Made by a program: the position numbers and the translations under genes. From positions 434,001 to 498,000 of the forward strand of contig NZ_JAOAMV010000001.1 of NCBI RefSeq assembly GCF_025154015.1: a DNA stretch of 64,000 nt. Reading direction: 5' to 3'. This DNA comes from Tsuneonella litorea. Its GTDB lineage: Bacteria > Pseudomonadota > Alphaproteobacteria > Sphingomonadales > Sphingomonadaceae. Shown piece after piece: positions 32,282 to 61,694 of this stretch. The notes beneath the pieces were generated by a model. That model worked only from the letters and a program-made list of their open reading frames with translations, had not been told where the DNA came from and ran no database searches. Positions within the stretch are counted from its first letter, which is position 1. Every line of letters starts with the position of its first letter.

Positions 32282-33334
32282 ATGAGCGACCATATCGTCC
32301 CGGAGGTGCCCGAGCGCGAGCTGCATACGCTCTCGCCCGAGGAACGCCGCAAGGACGCGCTCGAGCACCGGCCGGGCTTCCGCAGCCAGGTCATCAGCCG
32401 GGTCGGTCCCGGAACCAAGGCGTGGGAAGTCGCCAAGCGGGTGGCGGTGGGGGCCTACAACGACGGCTTCATCCACGCCGGCAACCTGGCCTACATGGCG
32501 ATCATCGCGATCTTCCCGTTCTTCATCCTCGGCGCGGCGGTGTTCAGCTTCATCGGTGACGAGGGCGAGCGCGCGGCGAGCGTCAACGCGGTGCTCTATG
32601 CCCTGCCGCCCATGGTCGGCAACGTGATCGAGCCGGTCGCCCGCAACGTGGTCGAGGCGCGCACCGGCTGGGTGCTTTGGCTCGGCGGGCTCGTCGGCCT
32701 GTGGACCGTGTCGAGCCTGGTCGAGACGATCCGCGACATCCTGCGCCGCGCCTACGGCACCCCGGCGACGCACGCGTTCTGGAAATACCGGCTGTGGTCG
32801 GCCGGCATCATCTTCGGCGCGGTCGTCCTGCTCATGCTCAGCCTGCTCGCGCAGGTCGTCATCGGCGCCGCACAGGAGGTGATCGACGCCTACCTCCCCC
32901 AGCTCAGCAACGCGATCGGCGAACTGCGGCTGTCGCGCATCGTTCCGGCCATGGGCCTGTTCGGCTCGCTGTACCTCCTGTTCTACACGCTGACCCCCAA
33001 GGCCTACCGCGAGCGGCGCTATCCCAAGTGGCCGGGCGCACTGGCGACGGCGCTGTGGTGGCTCGCGGTCACCGCCGCGCTGCCCCCGGCGATTCGCAGG
33101 TTCTTCAGCTACGACCTGACCTACGGCAGCCTCGCCGGGATCATGATCGCGCTTTTCTTTTTCTACCTCGTCGGACTAGGGATGGTGATCGGGGCCGAGC
33201 TCAATGCCGCGCTCGCCGAGACGCCGGAAGAGGCCGAGAATCGGATCGGTCAGGGCGACGACCGGCGGCGGGCGGCGGCGCGGTCGCGCGAGGACATCGA
33301 GGCGCAGAAGGCCGAGTACGAGGGAATCGAATGA
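32282..33334 (+). CDS. YihY/virulence factor BrkB family membrane protein
   Basis: A 350-residue inner-membrane protein with about six helices: NLAYMAIIAIFPFFILGAAV, GWVLWLGGLVGLWTVSS, LWSAGIIFGAVVLLMLSLL and three more. It has the family features: a conserved N-terminal amphipathic region (GAYNDGFIHAGNLAYM), TLTPKAYRERRYP before helix 5, and a charged C-terminal tail. BrkB was once linked to serum resistance and later annotated as ribonuclease BN in error; the true function is unknown. AAAGGGG gives a strong ribosome-binding site before the ATG. Its stop overlaps the fabI start by 4 bp. Confidence 0.88.
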   Translation: MSDHIVPEVPERELHTLSPEERRKDALEHRPGFRSQVISRVGPGTKAWEVAKRVAVGAYNDGFIHAGNLAYMAIIAIFPFFILGAAVFSFIGDEGERAASVNAVLYALPPMVGNVIEPVARNVVEARTGWVLWLGGLVGLWTVSSLVETIRDILRRAYGTPATHAFWKYRLWSAGIIFGAVVLLMLSLLAQVVIGAAQEVIDAYLPQLSNAIGELRLSRIVPAMGLFGSLYLLFYTLTPKAYRERRYPKWPGALATALWWLAVTAALPPAIRRFFSYDLTYGSLAGIMIALFFFYLVGLGMVIGAELNAALAETPEEAENRIGQGDDRRRAAARSREDIEAQKAEYEGIE

Positions 33335-34134
33335 ACAAGCTGATGGCGGGTAAGCGCGGGCTGATCATGGGCCTGGCGAACGACAAGTCGCTGGCCTGGG
33401 GCATCGCGAAGAAGCTGCGCGAGCACGGTGCGGAGCTCGCGTTCTCGTACCAGGGCGAGGCGCTGGGCAAGCGGGTGATTCCGCTCGCCGAGCAGCTGGG
33501 CAGCGACTTCTGCTTCGAATGCGACGTGTCGGACATGGCCGCGCTCGATGCGGCGTTCGAGCGGCTCAAGGAACGCTGGGACACGCTCGATTTCGTGGTC
33601 CACGCGATCGGGTTTTCCGACAAGAACGAGCTGCGCGGGAAATACCTCGACACCAGCCTCGACAACTTCCTGATGACGATGAACATTTCCGCCTACAGCC
33701 TCGTCGCGGTGGCCAAGCGGGCGTCCGCCATGATGTCGGCGGGCGGATCGATCCTGACCCTGAGCTATTATGGCGCGGAAAAGGTCGTCCCGCACTACAA
33801 CGTCATGGGCGTCGCCAAGGCTGCGCTGGAAACGAGCGTGCAGTACCTCGCCAACGATCTCGGCCCCGCCGGCATCCGCGTGAACGCGATCAGCGCAGGA
33901 CCGATCAAGACGCTGGCGGCGAGCGGGATCGGCGACTTCCGCTACATCCTCAAGTGGAACGAGCTCAATGCGCCGCTGCGCCGCAACGTGACGATCGACG
34001 ACGTCGGCGGGTCGGGCCTCTACTTCCTGTCCGACCTGTCCAGCGGGGTGACCGGCGAGGTCCACCACGTGGACGCGGGCTACCACGTCGTCGGCATGAA
34101 GCAGGAAGACGCGCCCGACATCGCGCTGGGGTGA
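33331..34134 (+). CDS. fabI: Enoyl-[acyl-carrier-protein] reductase (NADH)
   Basis: Catalyses the last reduction of fatty-acid elongation and is the target of triclosan. The 267-residue SDR protein has GLANDKSLAWGIA for nucleotide binding. The active-site pair is Tyr-x6-Lys in PHYNVMGVAKA, preceded by the second tyrosine in SYYGAEK. SAGPIKTLAASGI and the C-terminal GEVHHVDAGYHVVGM follow. Length and motifs are normal for an alphaproteobacterial FabI. The ATG at 33331 overlaps the yihY stop. It ends the core-genome part of the window; a 600-bp stretch without clear genes follows. Confidence 0.97.
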   Translation: MNKLMAGKRGLIMGLANDKSLAWGIAKKLREHGAELAFSYQGEALGKRVIPLAEQLGSDFCFECDVSDMAALDAAFERLKERWDTLDFVVHAIGFSDKNELRGKYLDTSLDNFLMTMNISAYSLVAVAKRASAMMSAGGSILTLSYYGAEKVVPHYNVMGVAKAALETSVQYLANDLGPAGIRVNAISAGPIKTLAASGIGDFRYILKWNELNAPLRRNVTIDDVGGSGLYFLSDLSSGVTGEVHHVDAGYHVVGMKQEDAPDIALG

Positions 34135-34733
34135 AGGCCCGTCTGATTTGAAGCGGTCCGAACCCCGATAGTGTCGGATCCTGACAGGCGCAGTACGAGT
34201 ACGGCGACGCCCGGCGCGGCCCGTGCAAAGAACTCCTGAGGGCACCCCGCCTTCGTACCGAGCATCGCATGATGCTTCGCCGAGAAAGAGCGATCCCTCG
34301 GAAAAACGTCACCTCGGAAGGGGAAACCCACGCGCGGTCTCCTGGTCAAAGGGAACGCGAAGGCGGGAAGCACTGCAAGAAGCAAACTGAAAGAGGCGCG
34401 CTGATTGCAAGGTGAGCGGGGCCCCATGACGCCCTTATGCGCTCGACCACGAAGAGATGCGGCATGTCGCGCTGCGGGTCGATCAGCGCCCCGTGAGCGA
34501 TGGGAAGCGGGGGTATTGGCCGGTTCTAGCAAGCGCGACTCCGCTCGGTCGAGGCTCCAGGAAAGTGCCGGATCGACAAGGGCTCCCCATCGTTGCTATA
34601 GCGGGGGGGGGCGTTTGCGGATATTTCTTATGTTCAACCCCGTGCACTGTAGGATTCTCAGCAAAATTGGCGTCGCTAACAGCGTCGACGGGACTTCCGG
34701 GACAGTCTTCAGGTTGCTTGAGGACGCCGGGGC
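34135..34733. other. 600-bp stretch without a convincing gene between fabI and the two-gene unit
   Basis: No frame on either strand shows a recognisable domain. Base composition falls toward its right end. A weak minus-strand frame in 34250-34450 has a hydrophobic segment but no start, motif or flanking signal that supports it; it may be a remnant. A candidate promoter (TCGACA at 34573-34578, TATAGC at 34597-34602, 18-bp spacing) precedes a run of nine Gs and the gene at 34734. No tRNA-like or att-like sequence was seen. Confidence 0.5.
34603..34611 (+). repeat. Run of nine guanines
   Basis: A G9 homopolymer lies just after a candidate -10 element and 122 bp before the start of the two-gene unit. 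Homopolymers of this length can vary by slippage. Here it would alter a leader or promoter spacing rather than a known coding frame. Confidence 0.4.
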
Positions 34734-35387
34734 ATGAGCCGACGAGAACCGGAAGCTAGAGACGCGTCGCCCGCGAGGCGTCGCCGTCGCAGGACGTCGA
34801 GCGTTGTGGCGAGCGGCGACAGCGATGCCCTCGGTGATGATGCCGACGGACCCGCACTCTATGGGGAGTCGGGCCCGCGAGTATGGGGCATCAAAGGCGA
34901 AAACCTTCGAGACATGCTTCTTGACTTGGCATCTGCTAGTATCGGAGGCGATATTGGCGGTCAGTTTATGGCAATTTCCAGTATAAAGGAAATGCTGGAC
35001 GATCTTGAGCCGGAAAATGCCATAGAGGCTCTACTGTTATCTCAAATGATGACAACATGCATGACTTCACTTCGACTGATAGCCAATGCGCAGGAGCCTG
35101 GTCGTCCTCTCGAGCGCTTTGAGAAGGTTATGAATCAAGCGCTGAAGTTGCAGAATCTGTTTTTGCGTCAACTCGATGCTTGGGAAAAGTTGCGGGGCAA
35201 AGGCAAGGAACAGAAGATCACGGTCGAGCACGTAACTGTCGGCTCTGGCGGTCAGGCGATCGTGGGTCACGTGCAGACCAGCATGCCAGTTGCTGAAACG
35301 CCCTTGACGCCCGACCAAAGCGCGCGGGGGCGCGGAAGCGCTCGCGATTCCGAATCGCCAGCTCGGCGTACGCGCGGGAAGAGCTAG
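34734..35387 (+). CDS. Uncharacterised protein with GGQAIVG motif, first gene of two-gene unit
   Basis: A 217-residue soluble protein of unknown function. Residues 1-45 are basic and serine/arginine-rich (RRRRRRTSS). The middle (about 55-150) is helical: GIKGENLRDMLLDLASASIG, then EMLDDLEPENAIEALLLSQM, then RFEKVMNQALKLQNLFLRQLD. The region near 160-180 reads QKITVEHVTVGSGGQAIVGHV, and the tail is low complexity. From memory, proteins ending with a VEHVxVxxGGQAIVGxV segment followed by an HGG-type gene occur as a pair in other alphaproteobacteria, without known role. Codon use is clearly less GC-rich than in neighbours, suggesting transfer. GAGGA precedes the ATG by 9 nt. Confidence 0.75.
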   Translation: MSRREPEARDASPARRRRRRTSSVVASGDSDALGDDADGPALYGESGPRVWGIKGENLRDMLLDLASASIGGDIGGQFMAISSIKEMLDDLEPENAIEALLLSQMMTTCMTSLRLIANAQEPGRPLERFEKVMNQALKLQNLFLRQLDAWEKLRGKGKEQKITVEHVTVGSGGQAIVGHVQTSMPVAETPLTPDQSARGRGSARDSESPARRTRGKS

Positions 35388-35390
35388 CCG

Positions 35391-35657
35391 GTGACATCGT
35401 ATCACGTCCGCAACACCCAAGGAATGAAGGCGGCGCCGAGGTGCGGGGCGAAGACCCGGCGAGGCACTCCGTGCCAGTCGCCGGCGGTCTCGGGAAAAGC
35501 CCGCTGTCGGATGCACGGCGGTGCGAAGGGGTCGGGAGCGCCTCGTGGCAATCAGAACGCCTATATTCACGGCGCATATTCTCGGGAAGCCCGGGAGTGG
35601 GATCGCGCGTTCGCGGAGATGCATCGTAAGCTGAAGGACGCGCTTCGCTCATTCTAA
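35391..35657 (+). CDS. Small Cys/His/Gly-rich HGG-motif protein, second gene of two-gene unit
   Basis: An 88-residue protein starting at a GTG 3 nt after the previous stop, with GGAAGAG as ribosome-binding site; an ATG at 35424 is possible. CGAKTRRGTPCQSPAV, then CRMHGG, arranges three cysteines and a histidine like a small metal-binding knuckle. GAKGSGAPRGNQNAYIHGAYS follows, given here as GSGAPRGNQNA and HGAYS. A basic and acidic helix (REWDRAFAEMHRKLKDALR) ends the protein. The CxxKTRxGxPCxxPA...CRMHGGxxxGAPxGNxNAxxHG layout recurs in many alphaproteobacterial hypothetical proteins (recollection). A nucleic-acid-binding role is a guess from the charge and cysteines. Confidence 0.78.
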   Translation: MTSYHVRNTQGMKAAPRCGAKTRRGTPCQSPAVSGKARCRMHGGAKGSGAPRGNQNAYIHGAYSREAREWDRAFAEMHRKLKDALRSF

Positions 35658-35957
35658 TCTGTGACGAAGCAGGCCGCGAACGGTGACCGGTCCGGCGTCA
35701 GCCTTCGATCGTCGGCAGAGCTGGAAATCAATAAAGGATACGCTCTCCTCGCTGGGATACTAGTGCAAACGCGCCCCTTTCGAACGCCGCGGGCTCCATG
35801 CCAAGCGGACGAAAGTGCACGGCGGCACCAAGATCATGCCGTAGACGGACACAGCTCGCTTGCGACAAAGGGTTGGCCAGCGGCTGGGCGATGCAGTATT
35901 GGCGCCTCAGATGAGGCGTCCGACCGTGGGCGCTTGACCGATAACCGTGCGCAGATC
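35658..35957. other. 300-bp leader before the beta-helix protein
   Basis: The reading frame of the following gene stays open back to a GTG at 35661, but its predicted first 99 residues have no recognisable fold and little coding character. I treat this stretch as leader DNA. It is somewhat less GC-rich than the core genome. No promoter match is convincing. Confidence 0.4.
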
Positions 35958-37562
35958 GTGATCGATAAAGCTAATGGGGAGTTGCCGGGAGAACCTGGAC
36001 CCTCGGTCGCCCGCGGGATTGACCGGCGTGCAATCGTTTCCGGAGCGGCAGGTCTGGCTGTGGGAGCATCCCTTGGTGCGACCGCTGTTGGGGGACAAGC
36101 TCAGGTGCCAGTGCACCCCGCAGATATCGCCACGCTCTCGGTGCACGATTTCGGGGCAAAAGGAGACGGTAAGGCCGCCGACGGGGACGCGATCCGCGCT
36201 GCACTCGCCGCTGCGGACGCGCTTGACTATCGAGAGAAGCGAATAGTCTTCCCCGCGGGCGAGTACCGCATCGACAAAATCGACCTCACCGGTACGCGGG
36301 GTATTGTCTTCGTTGCCGAAGGCACGGTGCAACTCGCAGGAACCGGTGGCGCATTCATAGTGGGATCTGAGCGTCACGCCCGTGAAGGCGACGACGGCTC
36401 GGTTTACAATTTTCGCATGGAGGGAAGCCAGTGGCTCATCGCTCCTGAACCGGGTGCGGAATACCGCCATGCTATGCAGCTTTACGGCCTCGTCCAATCG
36501 AGCCTCAGCAATATCTCGGTCTCGGGCGAGTTCGGACGAGGGGAATTCGAACGGGTCGCGGTCACCATCGACCGGAGCTGGGCGAACCGCTTCGAAGGCT
36601 TGGCGGTCGCATGTCCCGGCCTACCCGGACCGGGCCGCAAAAGCATCGCGATCCGATGCGAAATCGACAACGTAAACGTCAATACGTTCAACAGCTGTCG
36701 CATCGTCGGGATCATCGGCAAGCCGGACCTGGCAGGCACCATTGGGATGGTCGTCAACGGTTCCGCCAACCGTGTGGTGAACTGCGATGTGTCGGCGGTC
36801 GAGATCGGAATCGAGCTCGTGGCAGCGCGCGGCTGCATGTTGATGGGAAACTACCACGAAGCCGTGCAACGATGCGTCGTCGCCCGGCGCGGCAACTCGC
36901 GCGGTTGCACCATCGTTGGGGGTTTCTACGCAGTAGCTCCAGATGGCGTGGCCCTCAGTCTGGGCTCGAGCCAGTCGACGACAATCATGGGCGGCTGGTA
37001 CCGCGGCACCGGCGGCGGCACGTTCATTGACAGAGGCGATGCTTGCTATGGCCTCTCGGTGATCGAACCCGTGCTCGAGGACGTGGGCACGACGTACCGC
37101 GGCATTGAGCGCGGAGCGCTAACCCCAGGGGCCGCGGCGACCCGGATAAGTGCGGCCGGCGTGGTTTTCCCCGAACCGGAAGTTCGCTCGGATCACTCCC
37201 GCACGCTCGACGATTACAATGAAGGCGTCTTTGCGCCCCGTGGCGACGGCTTCGCGTTCGTCGACGGGTCAGCCGCCTTCACCAAGATTGGCAATATCGT
37301 GCACCTGCGATTTCGCATCGCCTTTCCGCCCAGCGGGTCGCGGCGAGAAGCGGCGCTGGTCGGCCTGCCGTTCGCCGCCGCCGACGGCGAAGGCGCCGGG
37401 GTCGTGCTTGGCGACCAGCGAAATCCGAACGGAAACGCGATCGCGGTGCGCGGCAATCGACTGGTGGTGATCGATCCGCGCACGGGCAAGGCGCGCGCCA
37501 ACGCCGAGGTGGCGGGCGACATGTATTCCGGCGTGGCGACGTATGCGGTGGCGGGTCGATAG
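35958..37562 (+). CDS. Tat-exported right-handed beta-helix protein, probable polysaccharide lyase/depolymerase
   Basis: About 534 residues from a GTG at 35958, the last start before the signal. The N-terminus has GIDRRAIVSGAAGLAVGASL, a twin-arginine-like signal. TLSVHDFGAKGDGKAADGDA then opens a pectate-lyase-3 (PF12708-like) domain, with IVFPAGEYRID. Many short beta-helix coils follow, such as NSCRIVGIIG, NRVVNCDVSAV and GCTIVGGFYAV. The C-terminal 110 residues (FAFVDGSAAFTKIGNIVHLRF and later beta strands) resemble the beta-sandwich tail of phage tailspikes. It most likely trims or degrades the exopolysaccharide made by the adjacent cluster. Start position is uncertain. It converges with the first asnB gene across 7 bp. 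Confidence 0.78.
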   Translation: MIDKANGELPGEPGPSVARGIDRRAIVSGAAGLAVGASLGATAVGGQAQVPVHPADIATLSVHDFGAKGDGKAADGDAIRAALAAADALDYREKRIVFPAGEYRIDKIDLTGTRGIVFVAEGTVQLAGTGGAFIVGSERHAREGDDGSVYNFRMEGSQWLIAPEPGAEYRHAMQLYGLVQSSLSNISVSGEFGRGEFERVAVTIDRSWANRFEGLAVACPGLPGPGRKSIAIRCEIDNVNVNTFNSCRIVGIIGKPDLAGTIGMVVNGSANRVVNCDVSAVEIGIELVAARGCMLMGNYHEAVQRCVVARRGNSRGCTIVGGFYAVAPDGVALSLGSSQSTTIMGGWYRGTGGGTFIDRGDACYGLSVIEPVLEDVGTTYRGIERGALTPGAAATRISAAGVVFPEPEVRSDHSRTLDDYNEGVFAPRGDGFAFVDGSAAFTKIGNIVHLRFRIAFPPSGSRREAALVGLPFAAADGEGAGVVLGDQRNPNGNAIAVRGNRLVVIDPRTGKARANAEVAGDMYSGVATYAVAGR

Positions 37563-37569
37563 GTTCGTT

Positions 37570-39447
37570 TCAGGCGAAGCGACGGCACCACAATTCTATC
37601 AGGACGAGGCCAAGCAACGGATAGGCCGCGTCGATCCGCCCGGCAAAATGATCGTCGCGCAACGCGGTGACCTTCGCCGGATCGAACAGGCCGCGCGCGG
37701 CAACGAGTTCGCTGGCGGTGAGATCGCCGATAGTATCGCGCATGGGTCCCAGCAGCCAACTGCGTAGCGGCACGCCGAACCCCGTTTTCGGTCGGTAGAT
37801 CACGTCATGCGGCAGGTGAGGCTCCATCGCCTTGCGCAGCGCCCATTTGGTCTTGCCGCCGCGAAGCTTGAATTCGGTTGGCATGGCGGCTGCGAATTCC
37901 ATCAGTACCGGGTCAAGGAACGGCACGCGAATCTCGACGCTCGCAGCCATGCCGGTCTTGTCGGTGTAATTCAGGTTGTGGTCGCGCAGGAAGAACTCCT
38001 GCTCCAGCCGAAGCATCCGTTCGATCGGGTTGCCCTCGGTCCGCGCCAATGCGTGGGAGAACGGCGCGATCACCGCGCCCGGATCGACGTCTGCCTCGAG
38101 CAGGTTCGCGGCCCTATCCGCCGGCAGCCATTCGAAGGCGCGCAAGAGGCGCTCCTCGCGACTGCCTTGGATTGCCGAGAGCGCCTTGCGCATCCGTCGC
38201 AGCGCTTCGCTATTCGACGGTATTGCGCTTGCCACGCTAAGCGCCAACCTGCGCAAGCCGCCGGGAACGGTCCCGACACCTTCGTCATGTGCGGCGATGG
38301 AATGGCGGCGATATCCGGTAAACACGTCGTCGCCGCCAGCCCCCCCGAGCAGCACCTTGATTCCGAGATCGCGTGCGGCACTGGATATGAAATAGTTCGC
38401 CAACGCCGCCGGATCCGCTTGCGGCTCGTCGAGCATGTCGACGAGCAGGGGCAGGTCGCGAACGAGACCTGGATCGACCGCGACCTCGTGGAGATCGACG
38501 CCGAGATGTTTTGCGGCGGTGCGAGCGAACGGCAGATCGGCCACCATCTCCCCGGCCGCGCGCACGTCCGCGTCGTAGCGGATGGTGAAGCAGCGCAGCG
38601 GCCGCTCGACCTGACGTCTGGCGAAATGAACGATCGAAGTCGAATCGAGGCCCCCGGACAGGAACGCACCGATTTCGACGTCGGCCAACATCTGCCGATC
38701 GACAGCCGCGCCGAGTTCGCGGTAGGTGCCGGACACCGCCTCGTCCGCCGACATCGCTCGCGGCTCATAGGCCGGCAAGCTGTAGAAGCGTCCTTCGCCC
38801 TTCGCCCGTCCGACAGCATCAAACCGCCGCCACACGCCTGCCGGATGCTTGCGAACGTCGGCGAACATCGTGCGCTCGCCGGGCGAATACAGGTAAGTAA
38901 GGTACGCTGCGGCCGCGACCGGGTCGAGCGCAGAGGTAAATCCATCGAGTTCGCGCAGGGCCTTGAGCTCGGAAGCGAACGCGAGGCCGCCCTCGGCCCG
39001 CCGCCAGCAATAGAGCGGCTTGACCCCCACCCCGTCGCGCACGAGCACCAGGGAGCGTTCGCGCCGGTCCCATATCGCGAGCGCGAAGATGCCATTGAGG
39101 CGGGAAAGGCAATCCACGCCGTCGCGCGCGTACAATTCGAGCAGGGTCTCGCTGTCGCTGCTGCCCTTGAATGAATAACCGGGAAGGTACTGCGCGCGCA
39201 GTTCCCGGTGATTGTATATCTCGCCGTTGAAGACCATCGCAAATCGACCCGAGCCGTCGAGCATGGGTTGCTGCCCGGCATCGGTCAGGTCGAGGACCGA
39301 GAGCCTTCGATGAACCAGCGAAAGGGGGCCGTCGTGCCACGCGCCCTCGTCGTCCGGGCCCCGGCGCTGGAGCGCGCAGAGCAACGCTGCGCGATCAACC
39401 GCAACGCGGTCTTCGTTGAAACCCAACGTACCGGCGATGCCGCACAT
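37570..39447 (-). CDS. asnB: Asparagine synthase (glutamine-hydrolysing)-like amidotransferase, copy 1
   Basis: A 625-residue two-domain protein. Met-Cys2-Gly opens the class II glutaminase domain (MCGIAGTLG, RRGPDDEG, VFNGEIYNH). The synthetase domain has the ATP PP-loop LSGGLDST near residue 264, then GGAGGDDVFTGYRRH and TGFGVPLRSWL. By family it moves the glutamine amide nitrogen to an ATP-activated carboxylate, either aspartate or a sugar acid. It lies inside the exopolysaccharide locus together with two more AsnB genes, so amidation of a uronic-acid unit is plausible. It follows the lipoprotein and sugar-transferase genes on the same strand, 6 bp after the lipoprotein stop. Confidence 0.9.
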   Translation of the reverse strand: MCGIAGTLGFNEDRVAVDRAALLCALQRRGPDDEGAWHDGPLSLVHRRLSVLDLTDAGQQPMLDGSGRFAMVFNGEIYNHRELRAQYLPGYSFKGSSDSETLLELYARDGVDCLSRLNGIFALAIWDRRERSLVLVRDGVGVKPLYCWRRAEGGLAFASELKALRELDGFTSALDPVAAAAYLTYLYSPGERTMFADVRKHPAGVWRRFDAVGRAKGEGRFYSLPAYEPRAMSADEAVSGTYRELGAAVDRQMLADVEIGAFLSGGLDSTSIVHFARRQVERPLRCFTIRYDADVRAAGEMVADLPFARTAAKHLGVDLHEVAVDPGLVRDLPLLVDMLDEPQADPAALANYFISSAARDLGIKVLLGGAGGDDVFTGYRRHSIAAHDEGVGTVPGGLRRLALSVASAIPSNSEALRRMRKALSAIQGSREERLLRAFEWLPADRAANLLEADVDPGAVIAPFSHALARTEGNPIERMLRLEQEFFLRDHNLNYTDKTGMAASVEIRVPFLDPVLMEFAAAMPTEFKLRGGKTKWALRKAMEPHLPHDVIYRPKTGFGVPLRSWLLGPMRDTIGDLTASELVAARGLFDPAKVTALRDDHFAGRIDAAYPLLGLVLIELWCRRFA

Positions 39448-39453
39448 TCGCGG

Positions 39454-40014
39454 TCAGCCGCCCTGCGGTTCTTGTAGCGTCTCGCTCGAACCCTCGTCGC
39501 GCATCCTTGTCGGCGCGGCGGGCGAGGTCTGAGCGGGTTGGGCCAGTTGGCGGAGGCAGGCCATTGCGAGCTTTGCCTGCTGGCTGTCCCCCACGTCCTC
39601 GCTCCGGCGTGTTTCGAGGGCACGCGAAATGGCCACAGGCGCATTCCCGCCGTCGAGTGCACGGGCGCGGTAGATCTTGATTGCCTTGTCGAGGCTAGCG
39701 TTCTGGTCGGCGTTCGTCATACCACCTTCTCGCATGCGTTGGCCAAGCCATTCCAGCGAGACCACGCACGATACCGAGAGCTGGAACGGGTCAGTGATCG
39801 CCTGCACTGCGCCATTGTTGCCCAGCGACAGCATTCGGGCGGCCCGCATTTCCGCCTCGCTTACCGGACTGTCGGCGCCGAGGATGTCCGCCGCGGTCCG
39901 CGACTCGGCCGGCCTGGAGCATCCTCCGATAGCAATGGCGGTAGCGGCGATCGCGGATAGAGCCGCAGTGCGCAGGGTCGCGTCGAAGTCCTTGACGTGG
40001 GGGACAGTGCTCAT
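39454..40014 (-). CDS. Putative lipoprotein of exopolysaccharide locus
   Basis: A 186-residue protein. A short polar start leads into a hydrophobic stretch (LSAIAATAIAIGGC) with a lipobox cysteine near residue 32. The remainder is soluble and mostly helical, with CVVSLEWLGQRMREGG and LDKAIKIYRARA segments and a proline-rich, acidic end. I do not recognise the family. Its ATG overlaps the stop of the sugar-transferase gene by 4 bp, so it belongs to the same transcript. An accessory role in polymer assembly at the envelope is likely from context only. Confidence 0.7.
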   Translation of the reverse strand: MSTVPHVKDFDATLRTAALSAIAATAIAIGGCSRPAESRTAADILGADSPVSEAEMRAARMLSLGNNGAVQAITDPFQLSVSCVVSLEWLGQRMREGGMTNADQNASLDKAIKIYRARALDGGNAPVAISRALETRRSEDVGDSQQAKLAMACLRQLAQPAQTSPAAPTRMRDEGSSETLQEPQGG

Positions 40015-41267
40015 TTCGAGCCAAACCCGGTTAGAATGATGCGCGCGGTGCGCAAGACGATGAGGATGTCGAGCCATGCCGAGAAATATTTCACGTAGTA
40101 GAAATCGTATTGGAGCTTGTGATCGATGTCTTCCAGATCGGTCACGTGCCCCTGGTTGACCTGTGCCCATCCAGTCAGCCCAGGGCGCACGATGTGGCGA
40201 TAGGAATAGAACGGCAATTCCCGTTCGTACCATTCAGCAAGTGGGATCGCTTCGGGACGCGGCCCTATAAAGCTCATCTCGCCCTTGAGGATATTCAGGA
40301 TCTGGGGGAGCTCGTCGATCCGGTACCGGCGGATGAAGCTGCCGAAGCGTGTGATGCGAACGTCGTTGGCGGCGGTCATCGCACTTGCCGCCGAACCGTC
40401 AAGCTCCTCGTCAGCCGATGCGGGGCGCATCGAGCGGAACTTGTAGATGGTGAACGGCTTGCCGCCGAGGCCTATCCGTTTCTGGCGATAGAGCACATCG
40501 CGGCCATCCTGCAGCTTGATGACCAAGGCCACGATTACGAGGAAGGGCAGCAGGATGGGCAGGAGTAACGCCGCTGCCACCCGATCGACCACCCACTTGA
40601 TTTCCTTATAGGCCTGGTCGGGGATCAGGGAGCCCAGGGTGTTCTCGGAAAGGTGCTCGATCTTCACCTTGCCCGCGATCGATTCCTGCAACAGTTTGTA
40701 GTGATACACCGGTATACCGCGCAGCGCTGCGCTGGCCAGGATCCTCTCCCATTCCGCCGGCAGATTGGCCCGAAGATCGGCAACAACGCTGGCACGGGGA
40801 TCGGACGGCAAGCCCGGCCGCTCCATCATCACCAGAGTGACGCCATCGATATCGCCGAGGCTCGCCGCCTCCCCGATCGGAACGACGTGGAAGTTGTTGC
40901 GCGGTGTGGAGGCAAAGAGGTCTTTCCGCACCACCATCAGGACAGCGGTTGCGATCAGGCTGTATGCGAGCAGCCCGACACTATAGGGAATGCGAAACAG
41001 GAGAAGCGCCCCCGCAATGATGGCAAATCCGGCAAAAACGGCCGGAATCCCCTGATTGCCTTGCCGCGTCCCGGGAAAGGAAAACAATTGCCGGGTAATG
41101 TATAGGCCCAGAAACAGGGCGATGCTCGAGGCGATGGTGGTGTTCAACGCGGACGTGTCGCGAATGAACACAAGATCTCGCGCGAAATAGAGCAAGACGA
41201 GTGGCAGCCCGCAGACCACAGACCACCCGATCAGGTAGCGCGCGAGAAAGTGCAGGATACGATTCAT
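40011..41267 (-). CDS. Polyprenyl-phosphate sugar-1-phosphate transferase (WcaJ/WbaP-like)
   Basis: Starts repeat-unit assembly by moving a sugar-1-phosphate onto undecaprenyl phosphate in the inner membrane. The 418-residue product has four N-terminal helices, a Rossmann-like middle region (CoA-binding-like) and a further helix near residue 230. The bacterial sugar-transferase domain then carries YRQKRIGLGGKPFTIYKFRSM, seen as QKRIGLGGKPF and YKFRSM, RRYRIDELPQILNILKGEMS in pieces, GPRPE and RPGLTGWAQVNQG. The ATG at 41267 was preferred over a TTG ten codons earlier. It is the first gene of the leftward operon with the lipoprotein and asnB genes. Confidence 0.9.
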   Translation of the reverse strand: MNRILHFLARYLIGWSVVCGLPLVLLYFARDLVFIRDTSALNTTIASSIALFLGLYITRQLFSFPGTRQGNQGIPAVFAGFAIIAGALLLFRIPYSVGLLAYSLIATAVLMVVRKDLFASTPRNNFHVVPIGEAASLGDIDGVTLVMMERPGLPSDPRASVVADLRANLPAEWERILASAALRGIPVYHYKLLQESIAGKVKIEHLSENTLGSLIPDQAYKEIKWVVDRVAAALLLPILLPFLVIVALVIKLQDGRDVLYRQKRIGLGGKPFTIYKFRSMRPASADEELDGSAASAMTAANDVRITRFGSFIRRYRIDELPQILNILKGEMSFIGPRPEAIPLAEWYERELPFYSYRHIVRPGLTGWAQVNQGHVTDLEDIDHKLQYDFYYVKYFSAWLDILIVLRTARIILTGFGSK

Positions 41268-41413
41268 TGATGGACCCGAGGACTGTCTGGGAAACAAGAT
41301 GCCGGACGCCGCGGTCGGCGAAAGCTATCGAAAAGTCGAATTCGCAATGGACGCCCATAGGGTCGAGCCTGCGCAGAATCAATTGCATACGGAACCAGCG
41401 TGGCGCCCTCGTA

Positions 41414-41442
41414 TTGCAAACGGGGAAGTGCTGCACTATCGG
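41414..41442 (+). promoter_or_regulatory. Candidate promoter for the rightward exopolysaccharide genes
   Basis: TTGCAA (41414-41419) and TATCGG (41437-41442) with a 17-bp spacer lie 31 bp before the ATG at 41473, in the 205-bp gap between divergent biosynthesis operons. Both elements are imperfect. Confidence 0.35.
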
Positions 41443-41472
41443 CCCACGTCCAGCGCGGCCAAGTAGGAAACA

Positions 41473-42876
41473 ATGCAAGCAAACCGCAGGAAGCGGGTCC
41501 GCGCCAAGCACGGGTTCGCCAATTATATGCGTTGGGATCTGGCCACCAACGCGAAGGCGCGCTTTGTCGTCTGCTGCACATTCGCCGCCGCGGTATTCCT
41601 GATGGGTGGCGGTTCGCGAGCAGACATCGCGTCCCTCGTGCTCTTACGCCCGCTCGCGGTATTCGTCGCCGCCTACGCGCTGATTGTCGCTCAGCCCGGC
41701 CAACTGCGCGCGATACGCGTTCCACTGGTATTGTTGCTATCGCTCGCCGCGCTGATGGCGGTTCAGCTCATCCCATTACCGCAGGACTGGTGGGCAGACC
41801 TGCCTGGCAGGGAGGTCTACGCGCGGATTCAGGCGGATGCCGGTCTTGGCGACGTGGCGAGACCCCTTACCCTCTCACCTGCGCGCACGCTCAATGCGCT
41901 CTTCTCGCTGACGGTGCCGCTCGCCACTCTTTGCATCGTCGCGGTACAGTCGAGCCAGAATCATCGCCGGCTGCTTTTCGCTATCGCCATCGGCGGGGCG
42001 ATGGCGGTTGTGTGGGCCGCGGCGCAGATCGCTGGTCCTCCGCATGGCCCGCTCTACACTTATGCACAAACCAACCACGGCTTTCCGGTTGGCCCCTTTG
42101 CCAACCGCAACCATCTGGCGCTGCTCCTCGCGATCGAGATCGTCCTGATCGGCTACATCAGTCGGCGGCTGATCCTTGAGGGAGCGATGCGGCCGTTCTA
42201 CGCGACGATCCTGGGCGCGAGTTCGCTCGTGGTGGTGGCGCTGGTGCTTGTCGCCGGTTCCCGCGCCGGCCTGGCTCTGGCAATCGTCGCCGCCCCGATC
42301 GCGGTGTGGCTATCATGGGCAGCCTACAAGCATTCGGGGGGCGAACCGGGACGCAAGGTCAAGATCGGCCTCGCCGTCGTGGCCCTTGCAGCTGTCTTGA
42401 TGATCATCGCGCTGGTAATCTACAACTCGCAGGCCGCGTCGATTGAACGACTAGCAGAAAACGGTGCTCGCGTCGATGTGCGGACCGAGCGGTGGCCGAT
42501 CGTGCTCGAGATGTTGCGCCAGCACTGGCTCTTGGGCATCGGGTTCGGCGCTTTCCAGGGCGCTTTCCAAGGCTTCGAAACCAGCGCGATCCTGACGCCG
42601 TTCGTGTTCAATCAGGCCCATAACGACTGGTTGCAGTTCCCGCTCGAAGGCGGATTGCCCGGAGCGGTGCTTCTGGCGATTGCGCTTGCATGGACAGCGA
42701 GCCGGTCGGCGAATGTCGTACTAGCGATCCGGCAACGATTTGATGGGGTGCGACTAGTGGCCGTCGCGATCCTCCTGCTCACGGCGCTTGCCAGCATCGT
42801 GGACTATCCGTTGCGGACCCCCATCATCATGTTCATCTGCGGTATATCTTTGGCCCTTCTGGCCCAACGCGATTAG
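41473..42876 (+). CDS. O-antigen ligase/Wzy-family polymerase-like membrane protein
   Basis: A 467-residue inner-membrane protein with about 10-12 helices and a large periplasmic loop. The Wzy_C (O-antigen ligase family) marks are visible: GPFANRNHLALLLA, VAGSRAGLALA, the loop with ENGARVDVRTERWP, and AHNDWLQFPLEGG. Members either join repeat units (polymerase) or ligate polymer to an acceptor. In a capsule-type locus with Wza and Wzc, polymerisation is the more probable role. TAGGAAA serves as ribosome-binding site. A second polytopic candidate polymerase lies at 47204, so the division of labour is open. Confidence 0.85.
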   Translation: MQANRRKRVRAKHGFANYMRWDLATNAKARFVVCCTFAAAVFLMGGGSRADIASLVLLRPLAVFVAAYALIVAQPGQLRAIRVPLVLLLSLAALMAVQLIPLPQDWWADLPGREVYARIQADAGLGDVARPLTLSPARTLNALFSLTVPLATLCIVAVQSSQNHRRLLFAIAIGGAMAVVWAAAQIAGPPHGPLYTYAQTNHGFPVGPFANRNHLALLLAIEIVLIGYISRRLILEGAMRPFYATILGASSLVVVALVLVAGSRAGLALAIVAAPIAVWLSWAAYKHSGGEPGRKVKIGLAVVALAAVLMIIALVIYNSQAASIERLAENGARVDVRTERWPIVLEMLRQHWLLGIGFGAFQGAFQGFETSAILTPFVFNQAHNDWLQFPLEGGLPGAVLLAIALAWTASRSANVVLAIRQRFDGVRLVAVAILLLTALASIVDYPLRTPIIMFICGISLALLAQRD

Positions 42877-42994
42877 GCGAATTTCGATTTACAAATCAGT
42901 ATCTTACGGGGAGGCCGGAACCGGAGGGCGATTTGGTTTACTTGGTCTGCACAATCGCTTACTGCTCACCCAAACCTCGTGAGGAAATTCGGTT

Positions 42995-43705
42995 TTGACT
43001 AAGGCTTTCCGGTTGATGGCGCTCGCGCTCGCTGCATTCGTCAGTGCATGTGCCAGCCCGCAGATCGGTACTGATTCCGGCCTGCAGCTGGTTCAGCAAT
43101 CTGCATTGCCCGCGCCCACACGCGAGGACGTAACCGCAGCGGAACGTCCCTACCTTGTCGGCCCGTTCGACAAGTTGAAAATCGACGTGTTCGGAGCCGA
43201 TGAGCTCGACGACAAGGAATTCCAGATCGATGCCAGCGGGCGTCTTTCCTTCCCGTTCGTTGGAACCGTCGAGGCAGGTGGGCTGACCCCCCAGGAGATA
43301 TCCGACCTGCTTGCATCGCGCCTGCGGGGGCGGATTATCCGCGATCCGCAAGTCACCGTGAACCTGATGGAATCGGTGAGCCAGCTGGTGACGGTCGAAG
43401 GCGCAGTCGGCCAGCCCGGCCGTTATCCGGTGATCGGAAAGATGACCCTGCTTCGAGCGATCGCTACCGCCAAGGGAACCACCGACGTCGCAAAAACCGA
43501 TTCAGTGCTCATTTTCCGCGAGGTCGGAGGGCAACGCTATGCCGGCGCTTACAACCTCAAAGCTATCCGCCAGGGCAATTACCCCGACCCCGAGGTCTAC
43601 GCCAACGACGTGGTGGTGGTCGGCGATTCGGCCGCCAGGAAGCTATTCCGCGACCTCTCGCCGCTGCTCGTTTCGCCTTTGGTCGTCTTGCTACAAAGTA
43701 TCTGA
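42995..43705 (+). CDS. Polysaccharide export outer-membrane lipoprotein (Wza-like)
   Basis: A 236-residue lipoprotein that would form the outer-membrane exit channel. The start is a TTG at 42995 with GAGGAA 8 nt upstream. The signal LMALALAAFVSAC has a lipobox cysteine near residue 19. The poly-export domain follows (YLVGPFDKLKIDVFGADEL, DASGRLSFPFVGTVEAGG, RIIRDPQVTVNLME). One SLBB-like domain comes next (VTVEGAVGQPGRYPVIGKMTLLRAIA in part). It is shorter than E. coli Wza, as is common in sphingomonads. The Wzc-like gene starts 3 bp after its stop. Confidence 0.92.
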   Translation: MTKAFRLMALALAAFVSACASPQIGTDSGLQLVQQSALPAPTREDVTAAERPYLVGPFDKLKIDVFGADELDDKEFQIDASGRLSFPFVGTVEAGGLTPQEISDLLASRLRGRIIRDPQVTVNLMESVSQLVTVEGAVGQPGRYPVIGKMTLLRAIATAKGTTDVAKTDSVLIFREVGGQRYAGAYNLKAIRQGNYPDPEVYANDVVVVGDSAARKLFRDLSPLLVSPLVVLLQSI

Positions 43706-43708
43706 TCA

Positions 43709-45907
43709 ATGACTGACCTCATAGCTTTTCCGGCCGCCAATCCCTTGGGTCTCTCCGACACCGGAGCGAGTGGCCCCAAGGGCGCGGGAGAAACCCCCGC
43801 GATCGAGCGCGTATGGCTGGCACTCAATAAATACCGTATCGATTTTGCGGTCATCGTCGTTCTGGCGCTGTTGGGGGCTTTGTTGATCACCTTGATCTCC
43901 ACCCCGAAGTACACGGCAACTTCGCGGATCGAGATCAGCCGCCAGCAGGATCGCGTCACCAATGTGGAGGGCCTCCAGCCCGATACGGCGGGACAGGATC
44001 TGGAATTCTACCAGACCCAGTACTCACTACTCGAGGCACGCTCACTGGCCGAACGGGTGATGCGCGCCGAACGTCTCGCTTCCGATGATGCCTTCTTCGC
44101 GGCGAGCGGGGTCGATCTCGACGGCGAATTTAGCAGCGCGGGCAGTCGTTCGCAGCGCGAGCAACTCGCAGTGGACTTGCTGATGCGCAACGTCAGTGTC
44201 GAGCCGGTGCGCAACTCGGCACTCGTCGATCTTCGATATACCAGTTCCGATCCGCAGATGTCGGCGCGGATCGCGAACGCGTGGGTTGCGCAGTTCGTCG
44301 AGGCGAAACTTGCCCGCCGCTTCGACTCAACCTCGGACGCACGCGAGTTCCTGACCAATCGGCTGGCTGAACTGCGTCAGAAGCTCGAACAATCCGAGCG
44401 AGACCTGGTCAATTATGCGGCCCAGAAGGGCATTCTTCCGATCGAAACAACCATCGATGCTTCCGGCCGCACAATCGGGCAGCGCACGATCGCGGCGGAT
44501 AAACTCCAGGGCATCAGCGAGGCGCTGGCGAAGGCGACCACCGAACGCATCGAGGCCCAGGCCCGGCTCGGCGGGAGCGGTGCGGCAAACGAGAGTGGAA
44601 ACGCGGGTGGGGCGGCACTTCCGGGCCTGCGGACGCGCAGGGCGGAAGTGGCATCGGAATATGCCAAGCTGAGCGCCCAGTTCGAGGATGGCTATCCGCC
44701 GGTCCAAGCCCTGCGCTCGCAGATGCGCTCGCTCGACGAGGCCATCGCGCGCGAAGAGCGGCGTGTCGGCAGCGGCACCCGGGAGGCATATGACCAAGCT
44801 GTGAAGCGCGAGCGCGAACTTCTCACCCAAGCCAACACGCTGGAAGCGAACCTCTTCCAGCAACGGTCCGATTCAATCCAGTACAACATCTATCAACGCG
44901 AGGTTGACACCAACCGCGAGCTCTACGACGGCCTGCTCCAACGCTACAAGGAAATCGGCGTCGCTGGCGTTGGTTCGAGTAACGTGGCGATCGTGGATCG
45001 CGCCACCGTGCCTGAGGGCCCTTCGAGCCCGAACATGCGCCTCAACTTGGCGCTGGCGGTGATCTTCGGCCTCGCTGCAGCTATGTCGTACGTCTTCATT
45101 CGCGAGCAAATCGACCAGAGCATCTCCGATCCGGCCGACGTTTCGGGTGTGCTCGGCTTGTCCTTGCTGGGCCTCGTGCCGCGCTCGGAAGAAGAGAACG
45201 CCTTCGAGGCGCTTGCTGACCGCAAGTCGGAACTTTCGGAAGCTTACTCCTCGATTGCCACGAGCCTGTCGTTCCTGACGGATCACGGCATTCCGCGCTC
45301 GATGATGTTCACCAGCACGGTTGCAAACGAAGGCAAGAGCACGTCTGTCTACGCTTTGGCGGAGATCATCGCGCGGCTCGGGCGCAGCGTGGTGATCGTC
45401 GACGCGGATATGCGCAACCCGACCGCGCACATCTTCTATGAGGTGGCCAACCAGAAGGGTCTGAGCAATTACCTTTCGGGCAATTCCGATCTGAGCGACC
45501 TCATCGCGCCGACCAAGGGCGGGCGTGTCTCGGTTTTGCCGGCCGGACCGACCCCTCCCAGTACTCTCGAGCTATTGAGCAGTGAGCGCATGCGGACGAT
45601 CGTGCGCGAACTCGCCTCGCGCTTCGACCATGTGCTGGTCGACAGCCCGCCGATTCTCGGCCTGGCCGACGCGCCGCTGATTTCTCGCGTGGTCGAAGGT
45701 GCGGTGCTTGCGGTGGAGGCGGACAACCTCAAGGCGCGACGGATCAAGGACGGCATCGTCCGACTGGAATCGGCGCAGACGCACATTTTCGGCGCTATCC
45801 TGACCAAGGTCGATCGGCGCAGTCCGGTCTATGGCTATGGTTATGGTTATGGTTACGGCAGCGACCAGAACGACCCCTTCAAGTATGGATCTTCGGCGTC
45901 GGGCTGA
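43709..45907 (+). CDS. Polysaccharide co-polymerase and tyrosine autokinase (Wzc-like)
   Basis: A 732-residue inner-membrane protein that controls chain length and couples export by tyrosine phosphorylation cycles. The Wzz domain has a first helix near residue 50 (FAVIVVLALLGALLITL) and a periplasmic coiled-coil region (about 200-400) with VREL-like repeats. A second helix near 450 follows. The cytoplasmic BY-kinase domain has Walker A (TVANEGKSTS, about residue 540), Walker A' VVIVDADMRNP and Walker B VLVDSPPILG. The C-terminus ends in a tyrosine cluster, five consecutive YG units then SDQNDPFKYG, the autophosphorylation site. No cognate phosphatase gene is in view. Confidence 0.94.
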   Translation: MTDLIAFPAANPLGLSDTGASGPKGAGETPAIERVWLALNKYRIDFAVIVVLALLGALLITLISTPKYTATSRIEISRQQDRVTNVEGLQPDTAGQDLEFYQTQYSLLEARSLAERVMRAERLASDDAFFAASGVDLDGEFSSAGSRSQREQLAVDLLMRNVSVEPVRNSALVDLRYTSSDPQMSARIANAWVAQFVEAKLARRFDSTSDAREFLTNRLAELRQKLEQSERDLVNYAAQKGILPIETTIDASGRTIGQRTIAADKLQGISEALAKATTERIEAQARLGGSGAANESGNAGGAALPGLRTRRAEVASEYAKLSAQFEDGYPPVQALRSQMRSLDEAIAREERRVGSGTREAYDQAVKRERELLTQANTLEANLFQQRSDSIQYNIYQREVDTNRELYDGLLQRYKEIGVAGVGSSNVAIVDRATVPEGPSSPNMRLNLALAVIFGLAAAMSYVFIREQIDQSISDPADVSGVLGLSLLGLVPRSEEENAFEALADRKSELSEAYSSIATSLSFLTDHGIPRSMMFTSTVANEGKSTSVYALAEIIARLGRSVVIVDADMRNPTAHIFYEVANQKGLSNYLSGNSDLSDLIAPTKGGRVSVLPAGPTPPSTLELLSSERMRTIVRELASRFDHVLVDSPPILGLADAPLISRVVEGAVLAVEADNLKARRIKDGIVRLESAQTHIFGAILTKVDRRSPVYGYGYGYGYGSDQNDPFKYGSSASG
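45830..45859 (+). repeat. Five hexanucleotide repeats encoding the tyrosine cluster of Wzc-like kinase
   Basis: Five TATGGN/TACGGN hexamers in a row encode Tyr-Gly five times. The middle copies are identical (TATGGT), so slippage could add or remove YG units in frame. Confidence 0.7.
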
Positions 45908-45935
45908 TCGATCGCGAAACTTGCAAAAGTCCGTT

Positions 45936-47165
45936 ATGCGGAAGCCGCTTCAAATAATCGGGGTATTCGCCGCTGCGCTCGTGCTTGCGTCAGCGAGCGG
46001 GTCTGCCGCCACGTCGAGCGTGCTTGCCAGCCGGTCGCCGGCGAGCGCCGTGAAGCTTCCGATCGTCGACGCCAATGCCTATGCCGCCTTGGCGATCGAT
46101 AGCCTCAACACGCCATATGGCACGAAAGGCGAAACCGGCGGATCCACGATGGAAGCGCTGGCCGCCCGCGCGTTTCTTAGCGAACCGACCAACAGCAAGG
46201 CGGTCAGCGCGCTCGCCCTCTCACGTCAACTCGCAGGCGACCAGCTGGCGGCGCGGACTCTGTACGCCGATGCCCTGCTGCTGTCTCCCAGGGAGAAGAT
46301 CGCCAATCTCGCCCTGATCGAAGACGCCAGCAATAATGGCAGGATCGGGTTTATCCTCCAGCGGTACAACGTATTGCTCCGAACGGGGGGCATGACATCC
46401 GAGGCGCTGCTCGACGTTATGCTCACATCCCTTCGTGAACGCGCGATCCTGCCGCATATCGAGACGATACTCGTCGACGATCCCCCGTGGGTCCGGTCGT
46501 TCTGGATCAAGGCGGCGGTAAACGACGCAGCGATCGCCAACGTGGGACGGTTGCGCTTGAGACTGCTGGAAAGTGGTAAGGCGAACCCCGCGGAGAACGA
46601 TGCCGACATCATCGCCCGTCTGGTTGGAGCGGGACATTACGACATCGCTTCGGCCATCTTCAACAAAGTTAGCGGAAGCCGGCGCTCCGGCGCGAACGTG
46701 CTTCGGAATGGGCAGTTTGAGCGCGCACCCGTCTTGCCACCGTTCGACTGGGCAACGTATTCCGACGCACGCTATGGCGCCGAAGTGGACGAGGGCTCGG
46801 GGGCACTGATCATCTATACCGAAAGTCCGGCGGACAATCTGGTCGCCCGGCAGTTGGTGACACTGCCTGCGGGCGTATATTCTGTGCGCGGACAGTTTCC
46901 TGATCCGCGGAACGCTGCCGGGACTTCATTGTCCCTCCGGCTTCGCTGTGCGTCTGGCGGCGCAAGCGCAGGCGCCACGAGCTCGGCCAAGATCGGGAGC
47001 ACCGCTACGTCCATAGATTTTGCAGGCGGCTGCAAGTTCGCCTGGGTCGAACTTTGGGCACGGAGGGATACCGCCCCATCCGGTTACGCCACCGACATCG
47101 CTCTCGAAAGTCTCACGCTGGTTCCCGCGAAGCGGACTGCTGCTCCCTCGCCCAGGACGCGGTGA
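45936..47165 (+). CDS. Exported helical-repeat protein with C-terminal beta-sandwich, EPS-locus specific
   Basis: A 409-residue secreted or periplasmic protein. The signal peptide is QIIGVFAAALVLASASGSAA. Residues about 60-250 are helical repeats of TPR-like type (ALALSRQLAGDQLAARTLYADALLLSP, given as QLAARTLYADALLLSP). The C-terminal 150 residues start with NVLRNGQFERAPVLPPFDW, the opening typical of carbohydrate-binding jelly-roll domains. YSVRGQFPDP and cysteine pairs follow. It lies between the Wzc-like and polymerase genes. A role in binding or organising the nascent polymer in the periplasm is inferred. The TTG at 45921 is an alternative start. Confidence 0.75.
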   Translation: MRKPLQIIGVFAAALVLASASGSAATSSVLASRSPASAVKLPIVDANAYAALAIDSLNTPYGTKGETGGSTMEALAARAFLSEPTNSKAVSALALSRQLAGDQLAARTLYADALLLSPREKIANLALIEDASNNGRIGFILQRYNVLLRTGGMTSEALLDVMLTSLRERAILPHIETILVDDPPWVRSFWIKAAVNDAAIANVGRLRLRLLESGKANPAENDADIIARLVGAGHYDIASAIFNKVSGSRRSGANVLRNGQFERAPVLPPFDWATYSDARYGAEVDEGSGALIIYTESPADNLVARQLVTLPAGVYSVRGQFPDPRNAAGTSLSLRLRCASGGASAGATSSAKIGSTATSIDFAGGCKFAWVELWARRDTAPSGYATDIALESLTLVPAKRTAAPSPRTR

Positions 47166-47203
47166 TGGCTTTCTGTCTTCGCAGTCCGGCCAGCTAGCAG
47201 ACG

Positions 47204-54707: not shown

Positions 54708-54726
54708 CTCGCGCGGAGCGGCGAAC

Positions 54727-55875: not shown

Positions 55876-56176
55876 AACAGTTCCTTGCGGCTTCTCCGTC
55901 CATGGCGGGACGGTCGGCTTCGTAGATCGGATAGAGGCGGCGGTATCGTCGCGTGCCAAGCACGGCTTTCAATGACGAGCACCTGCTAAGGTCGGTATCG
56001 AGTATCATCCTTGCTAGAGCGGAACATCGGGCGCGCCGGCGAACCACGGCCAGTGGCCGCGGCTTTTCGCACGCGCAGACTCGCTGGGCGAGAAGCCGAT
56101 CTTCGTTCCCGGGTCAAGTGCCCCGATAGACGTCGCGCAGAACCCGCATTGCCCGCTCCCGCCACCGACCGGGCTC
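55876..56176. other. 300-bp gap between Wzx and the aminotransferase gene
   Basis: No gene is evident on either strand. It probably holds a promoter for the leftward aminotransferase gene (see 55944-55972). GC content is high and no repeat or hairpin stands out. Confidence 0.5.
55944..55972 (-). promoter_or_regulatory. Candidate promoter for the leftward aminotransferase gene
   Basis: Read leftward, TTGAAA (55972-55967) and ACGATA (55949-55944) are 17 bp apart, about 70 bp before the start at 55875. Both are moderate matches to the vegetative consensus. Confidence 0.3.
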
Positions 56177-57637: not shown

Positions 57638-57760
57638 CGAGCGGCGTAGTTGCTGTCGGCGCGAACCCCCATTTCAGGCAGCTCCAGAATTGGTCGCACG
57701 CGACGCGGGGCGCTTTCGCTGATGCCCCTGTTGGTCAGTTCAGCGCGGCGGGCCACTCGG

Positions 57761-61272: not shown

Positions 61273-61694
61273 GACGACGGGCCTGCCGTGTCCAAGGTCG
61301 GTAGCCGCCTTACGGGCACCTTATCGAAGTTCTTCATAAAGCTCTTAAGTCCCATTCGTGACAGCTGCCCCCGGCTGCCGGCGGAGGTGCGTCGCAGGAT
61401 CGCCGCGACGGGGCAGCGTTAATGTCAGGAACCTTTCGGAAATCAAGCTGGAACCAACCTGCCGCCGCTTTCCGGTGCCCGCCCGCCGGACCGCGTACAA
61501 TCTCTTCGCATTAATCGGACTGCCCCGATCCGCTCAGCGAGCGCGACCCAATGCAAGGCGCAGACAGGGCGTAACGCACAACTCGTTGCACCGGGCTTTT
61601 TTGCATCCTCGGGTCCCCTATCTGGGTGACTCAGGGGTTTGGCGACTGTAGTGGCGGGCATGATGGCATCCCCCCTTCTTCGTCCGGAACAGCC
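61273..61694. other. 420-bp divergent control region
   Basis: The region between the leftward acetyltransferase and the rightward 2-epimerase holds no clear gene. AT-richer patches near 61300-61350 and 61495-61515 (including TACAAT) could be promoter elements for either direction, but no pair with good spacing was settled. Both flanking genes use GTG starts. Confidence 0.45.

Follow-up and report, generated by a model that had tools for sequence, protein, structure and literature searches.

A gene pair with a small-terminase-like member in alphaproteobacterial mobile elements and at an exopolysaccharide locus of Tsuneonella litorea

Among the closest described systems, PICIs sometimes carry terS (PMC6092414), and PICMIs are sought with a search model of integrase, AlpA, and DUF3987, the corresponding paper reporting no terS in the passages considered (PMC10803314). 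The gene pair described here, P1-HGG, lies in a stretch of 64,000 nucleotides from T. litorea (contig NZ_JAOAMV010000001.1, positions 434,001 to 498,000; hereafter the window), and its relatives are likewise found in compact elements with an integrase and a primase or DUF3987 protein, some of which also possess an HTH_17 (AlpA-type) gene. However, the hosts of the pair differ from those of PICIs and PICMIs, and around the window copy the element genes are all absent.

A second comparison is offered by phage small terminases (TerS) of the HGG type, namely phrog_9231, phrog_1889, and the proteins preceding Terminase_6N, which have a Cys/His and GAPxGNxNA head in common with HGG. These phage proteins are mostly ~150-250 aa long and are encoded ahead of a large terminase, whereas HGG of the window comprises 88 aa, comes after P1, and is not adjacent to a large terminase gene, the next gene being pectate-lyase-like. 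Furthermore, HGG passes the curated cut-off of the NCBIfam model NF041373 (HGGxSTG domain-containing protein) with 47.1 bits against 29, over all 38 positions (1-38); this model describes a domain without function and is silent on P1 and on the pairing. Finally, type II toxin-antitoxin and other two-gene units consist of two small, translationally close genes, as does the pair, which however matches no such family and contains a phage-packaging-type domain instead of a toxin or antitoxin.

The gene pair and its family

Two adjacent, linked genes 3 bp apart had been described in the first-pass annotation, and both ORFs are indeed intact on the + strand (Table 1), with 3 bp separating the P1 stop codon (35385-35387) from the GTG of HGG (35391). 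This GTG start is credible because it yields the N-terminus common to relatives, M-x-x-x-H-x-R-N-T in most of the 12 aligned. The sequence VEHVTVGSGGQAIVGHV, previously taken as the end of P1, is present in the protein but is not its C-terminus, as 37 residues come after it.

Table 1. Features of the window around the P1-HGG pair
Feature	Position	Strand	Description
fabI	33331..34134	+	267 aa by congener ORF; left flank common to congeners; identified by sequence and in the first-pass annotation rather than by family scan
Pair-bearing segment, fabI to pectate-lyase-like gene	34135..35940		absent there in G008; right edge approximate
P1	34734..35387	+	217-aa helical protein; V-x-H-V-x-V-x-x-GGQAIVG stretch (residues 164-178); no named family
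HGG	35391..35657	+	88 aa; NF041373; C18/C28/C39/H42; GAPRGNQNA; GTG start
Pectate-lyase-like ORF (PF12708), right flank	35661..37562	+	family match
Exopolysaccharide (EPS) locus right of pair	37570..63560		polysaccharide-export and glycan-biosynthesis-like genes, read by sequence

The pair had also been placed in a pocket of shifted composition. The shift is real and P1 is its extreme, but it is not confined to the pair: GC content amounts to ~58-67 % per kb from around fabI through the EPS side to the window end, so that a drop specific to the pair was rejected, the GC3 of P1 alone being extreme. With a GC3 of 0.587, P1 is the lowest among the predicted genes of at least 100 aa (heuristic gene calls), for which the median is 0.865 on the left (27 genes) and 0.753 on the EPS side (20 genes, minimum 0.642); HGG, too short for this list, has a GC3 of 0.708, within the EPS-side range. 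No Rfam family was detected in 33900-36200, and promoter- or terminator-like sites in 34100-36100 did not exceed those of shuffled sequence.

Scanning public genomes for DNA encoding the V-x-H-V...GGQA stretch yielded at least 117 stretches, and six further stretches came from viral contigs, close relatives of the pair being rare in phage collections. Together, these 123 loci constitute our discovery set, in which 114 gave a P1 ORF by the expression used (L038 and L135, with identical P1, are both counted). Among the matches listed, an HGG ORF lies directly downstream of P1 on the same strand in 100 of the 114, and 6 of the 14 P1 ORFs without HGG have no more than 300 nt of sequence remaining; the homologues thus do occur together, and their pairing is a property of the family and not due to chance. 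If ORFs are taken from the first possible start, HGG overlaps P1 in 87 of the 100 pairs, in 18 of these by exactly 4 nt. All 100 HGG ORFs fall into one single-linkage BLAST cluster. P1 also matched ten plasmid records, and in three of the six that were opened, from Microvirga, Sulfitobacter, and Methylobacterium, an annotated HGGxSTG gene directly follows P1.

The hosts, among the matches listed, are mainly Alphaproteobacteria, where the pair had already been said to recur, as well as Acidobacteriota, Thermodesulfobacteriota, Chlamydiota, and further groups, many being represented by metagenome bins. P1 is sparse: 11 genomes out of 385 in the class contain it, as do 4 of 98 relatives (the window's own genome is included in both). 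In a tree of 113 P1 cores from the matches listed, good support was obtained for 43 of 109 inner branches, and the window P1 forms a long, unplaced branch. A literature search, most subscription papers being outside its scope, returned no match for HGGxSTG or GGQAIVG, and the pair may therefore have been described elsewhere.

HGG, phage small terminases and the helical partner P1

HGG had been regarded as lacking any known identity, a view that no longer holds, as it contains the NF041373 domain and is a relative of the phage small-terminase head; nor is it a known housekeeping zinc protein. Its Cys/His segment was rightly recognized as being of metal-binding type. Cys18, Cys28, Cys39, and His42 do not vary across an alignment of 76 relatives (window included). 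Among these 76 relatives, phrog_9231 is matched by 33 and phrog_1889 by 28, each bearing the name terminase small subunit, while the commonest match is phrog_3678 (39 of 76), which has no assigned function. We further scanned viral contigs for the HGG motif, obtaining 58 stretches, of which 54 possess an HGG ORF by the expression used; 20 of these 54 were left out of the test, as 14 of the stretches contain no large ORF after HGG and in 6 the next such ORF is more than 1 kb away. In 32 of the 34 tested, the large ORF directly after the viral HGG protein matches Terminase_6N. A profile comparison of HGG with 46 such phage proteins gave a probability of 99.8 % (E 1.6e-27, 54 columns), although part of this similarity arises by construction because the phage rows were chosen by the HGG motif; for the same reason, it is the position beside a large terminase that counts as independent evidence. 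Judged from these sequence comparisons, HGG and the zinc-knuckle/GAPxGNxNA head of phage TerS are homologues, and in the window HGG consists of this head followed by a C-terminal helix. It probably binds metal as well as DNA. The predicted structure of the window HGG has a mean pLDDT of 82.8 and no significant match in the PDB (best E 1.3), and no solved relative of HGG was found by sequence.

P1, on the other hand, matched nothing in Pfam, NCBIfam, PHROGs, or PADLOC, and family scans of its aligned relatives gave scattered weak matches only. Neither P1 nor HGG hit a PADLOC family at E up to 1, and P1 had no match in 50,697 phage records. Its model (mean pLDDT 73.3) places the helices within residues 47-154 and shows the conserved GGQAIVG stretch as coil with moderate confidence. 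A fold search gave nothing significant (best E 0.88 in the PDB and 0.13 in BFVD), and no solved relative was found by sequence; as modelled, P1 is helical and corresponds to no known fold. A profile comparison with the phage proteins showed no similarity (0.2 %) and thus gave no support to P1 as a piece of TerS by sequence, although in function P1 might still correspond to the oligomerisation and large-terminase-contacting part. Because the two genes co-occur, P1 is presumably the partner of HGG, and the two proteins may be in direct contact. P1 represents a widespread protein family that none of the four searched libraries contains, and its partner bears a recognizable viral packaging domain. 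As a side observation, a viral contig (L036:3817-7878) contains a 1353-aa ORF with a tail-spike-like start and a P1 domain end in frame, reflecting either a fusion or a missing stop codon.

We propose that P1-HGG is a split, TerS-like, two-gene DNA-recognition module of small mobile elements, which has been stranded in the window, and to this explanation we assign an even chance. Here, HGG would act as the stand-alone zinc-knuckle, DNA-contacting head of phage TerS, and P1 as a helical partner, probably contributing an oligomerisation or adaptor part missing from the short HGG. Within the tRNA-integrated integrase-primase-helicase elements, which resemble phage satellites, the pair would most likely mark element DNA for packaging or divert the packaging machinery of a helper phage, a role suggested by the homology to TerS and by the analogy to PICIs, which sometimes carry terS (PMC6092414). 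Against this proposal stand the missing similarity of P1 to TerS or to any fold, the lack of an assigned function for the PHROG most often matched by HGG relatives, the scarcity of close relatives in phage collections, and a window copy devoid of recombinase, tRNA, and att-like repeat. If the pair is a split TerS, many satellite-like elements of Alphaproteobacteria and other phyla would have escaped recognition, and the DNA-marking step in their packaging would become directly testable.

Mobile elements and recombinase units carrying the pair

The pair is encountered in tRNA-integrated integrase-primase-helicase elements, in a unit of P1, HGG, a helix-turn-helix (HTH) gene and a tyrosine recombinase, and as orphans. 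Within the 114 mostly incomplete stretches, and among the matches listed, an integrase-type cluster is present in 27, usually 4-6 ORFs ahead of P1. A DUF3987-type cluster, found in 26, precedes P1 in every case and is encoded on its strand. For an independent survey, 12 aligned HGG proteins from the lineage of the window served as query. Matches were obtained in 59 of the 396 genomes representing the order and in 31 of the 385 representing the class, and we fetched 40 regions: all 10 matches of at least 100 bits outside the window's own genome and 30 of those below. P1 was detected beside HGG in 34 of the 40. An integrase- or DUF3987-type homologue is present in 25 of the 30 lower-scoring regions versus 3 of the 10 high-scoring ones, and a tRNA gene in 25 of 30 versus 3 of the 9 high-scoring regions scanned. 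Exact copies of the tRNA end (14-40 nt) bracket a segment of 5.3-15.6 kb with the pair in 9 of 26 tRNA loci (copies of 12-13 nt in 3 of the 26 were not counted, and 14 have none), and an integrase homologue lies within the bracketed segment in 8 of the 9, and just outside it in L259. The element L249, for instance, reads repeat (429), integrase, MmeI-type enzyme, CHC2/Toprim primase, DUF3987, P1, HGG, and tRNA-Ser repeat (10772). The MmeI-type (type IIG) restriction enzyme (L249:3238-6036) is cargo of this tRNA-Ser-integrated element, which ends in P1-HGG.

These contexts bear on the idea of a chromosomal host unit that acts as a toxin-antitoxin system, in stress, or in EPS regulation, which would suit the tight coupling of its genes, the small DNA-binding-type protein, and the location at the edge of an EPS locus. 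However, no toxin, antitoxin, or regulator family was matched, lower-scoring relatives mostly reside in integrase elements without EPS homologues, and the presence of the pair is sporadic, which renders a host unit very unlikely; the stress-linked function put forward initially found no support.

In the second lineage, P1 and HGG are followed by the HTH gene on the other strand and the tyrosine recombinase, an order found in L010, L014, L016, L042, L049, L089, and L143, and in L233 and L234 of the survey; the recombinase of L233 belongs to PF00589, and L010 is a pair-recombinase unit on contig 28 of the window's own genome. L014 and L049 have in common a block of 2.7 kb (75 % identical) that reaches from ~160 nt upstream of P1 past the recombinase, its left end marking a true loss of similarity and its right end the end of the L049 stretch. 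Direct repeats of at least 11 nt around the unit were absent in six loci (with only 170 nt on one side in L234). The recombinase family is wider than the pair, as none of seven recombinase regions contains P1 and one has a weak HGG match; in two of the seven (L363 and L367), recombinase and HTH gene occur in EPS loci without P1 (L363:8368-10348 and L367:9532-10672), being of the type found in the pair units. In L363, a neighbouring protein with an STGPRTPEGK...NAVKHG stretch may substitute for HGG. In addition, a HerA-like defence-type gene (PADLOC) is located at L010:15906-17498, ~2 kb past the pair-recombinase unit.

The exopolysaccharide locus and the window copy

EPS homologues are present in 5 of the 12 discovery loci with an HGG of at least 100 bits versus 2 of 83 below (p 2.5e-4, among the matches listed). 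Since L048 matches only the asparagine-synthase queries, which are not EPS-specific, these queries were removed, leaving 4 of 12 versus 2 of 83 (p 0.002, again among the matches listed). The EPS link had been spotted in the discovery set before being tested, and 8 of its 12 high-scoring loci are rows of the scoring alignment (L042, L048, L049, L064, L089, L100, L143, and L157), some of them picked for the recombinase and none for EPS genes. In the independent survey, the counts were 4 of 10 versus 1 of 30 (p 0.01), with the same result without asparagine-synthase queries. The lineage of recombinase-type and orphan pairs is therefore enriched in EPS loci. The six high-scoring survey loci without EPS homologues are L235, L236, and L239-L242, two of these contigs being only 4 and 7 kb long. 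As 20 of the 27 EPS queries stem from the window, so that the query set mostly represents its own locus, the true rates may be higher: L157 of the discovery set, although scored as a miss, is closely followed by a UDP-sugar dehydrogenase gene. A pooled p for both sets was not used because L248 and L258 appear to repeat L062 and L060, nor was a count for a hand-chosen lineage (7 of 13 versus 1 of 99), which included L014, a source of EPS queries. An EPS-linked lineage would connect recombinase and packaging-type proteins to loci shaping phage adsorption. Within the window EPS locus, three asparagine-synthase-like ORFs were recognized by sequence (37570-39447, 49652-51727, and 51715-53622).

Such an association might reflect an anti-phage device, in which an orphan TerS-like complex beside a surface-sugar locus binds phage DNA or the large terminase and jams packaging. 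The homology of HGG to TerS and the EPS enrichment are in line with this, as is the type IIG restriction enzyme in one relative element (L249), but neither protein has a PADLOC match and orphan copies also occur outside EPS loci (L236, L239, L241, and L242), and we regard the device as improbable. A bolder reading, rather doubtful at present, regards P1-HGG with HTH gene and tyrosine recombinase as a mobile unit not described before, which prefers EPS loci of Alphaproteobacteria and is built round a split TerS; it would drive the exchange of surface-polysaccharide genes or guard the cell by jamming phage packaging, the window copy being a domesticated remnant that still works.

In the window, the pair stands as an orphan within a segment of ~1.8 kb that separates fabI from the EPS locus. 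The HGG of this copy ranks with those nearest to the recombinase lineage (65 % to L143, 62 % to L157, and 57 % to L049). The window contains no homologue of the recombinase, integrase, DUF3987-type, or recombinase-lineage HTH proteins and no tRNA, and no att-like repeat surrounds the pair; of the mobile function proposed at first, mobility applies to the family, whereas the window copy lacks a recombinase homologue, a tRNA, and a clear repeat boundary. A stretch beside fabI that matches the L042 recombinase (E 5.9e-5) lacks the catalytic stretch and was not counted as an integrase remnant.

In G008, of the same genus, fabI is directly followed by pectate-lyase-like, asparagine-synthase-like, and further EPS genes, and the pair is missing. 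Because homology to G008 begins at residue 120 of the pectate-lyase-like ORF, the true start of this gene is probably near 35940, and the right edge of the pair-bearing segment is approximate owing to this uncertain start. No convincing match to the pair was found beside fabI in 10 congeners (best E 0.002), for which 1.5 kb on each side of fabI was read in all 10 and 9-11 kb downstream in five. G731, from another genus of the same family, has a pair between fabI and Wza/Wzc-type genes, where a 571-aa ORF is present in addition. Between the P1 proteins of G731 and the window, identity amounts to 41 % over 98 aa, against 87-92 % for fabI over two stretches, so that the pair may either have reached a hot spot more than once or be an old inheritance that changed fast. 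In G641, HGG is found in an EPS locus after a P1-like ORF without the GGQAIVG stretch.

Possibly, though we hold this only tentatively, the window pair is an inactive relic of a decayed mobile element, left as debris where a hot spot borders the EPS locus. Its orphan state in a window without recombinase, the long P1 branch, and the congeners without the pair beside fabI are consistent with decay, and L123, which has a truncated recombinase directly after HGG in an EPS locus (L123:5291-5786), indicates that P1-HGG-recombinase units do decay. Conversely, both window ORFs are intact with the invariant P1 and HGG residues kept, and G731 has a pair at the corresponding place in another genus. The split TerS-like module proposed above, which in its unit with HTH gene and recombinase would turn up in EPS loci, best accommodates the window copy as an orphan of the recombinase-type lineage, probably left stranded at the fabI-EPS boundary; any present activity or role of this copy is presumptive.

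Near orphan or recombinase-type pairs we also observed an ADP-ribosylglycohydrolase/phosphatase protein (L241:4483-6015, L234:4834-6084, L239:5722-7263, and L174:3912-4757; called by Pfam scan for L241 and by eye for the other loci), which likewise occurs downstream of fabI in the congener G006.
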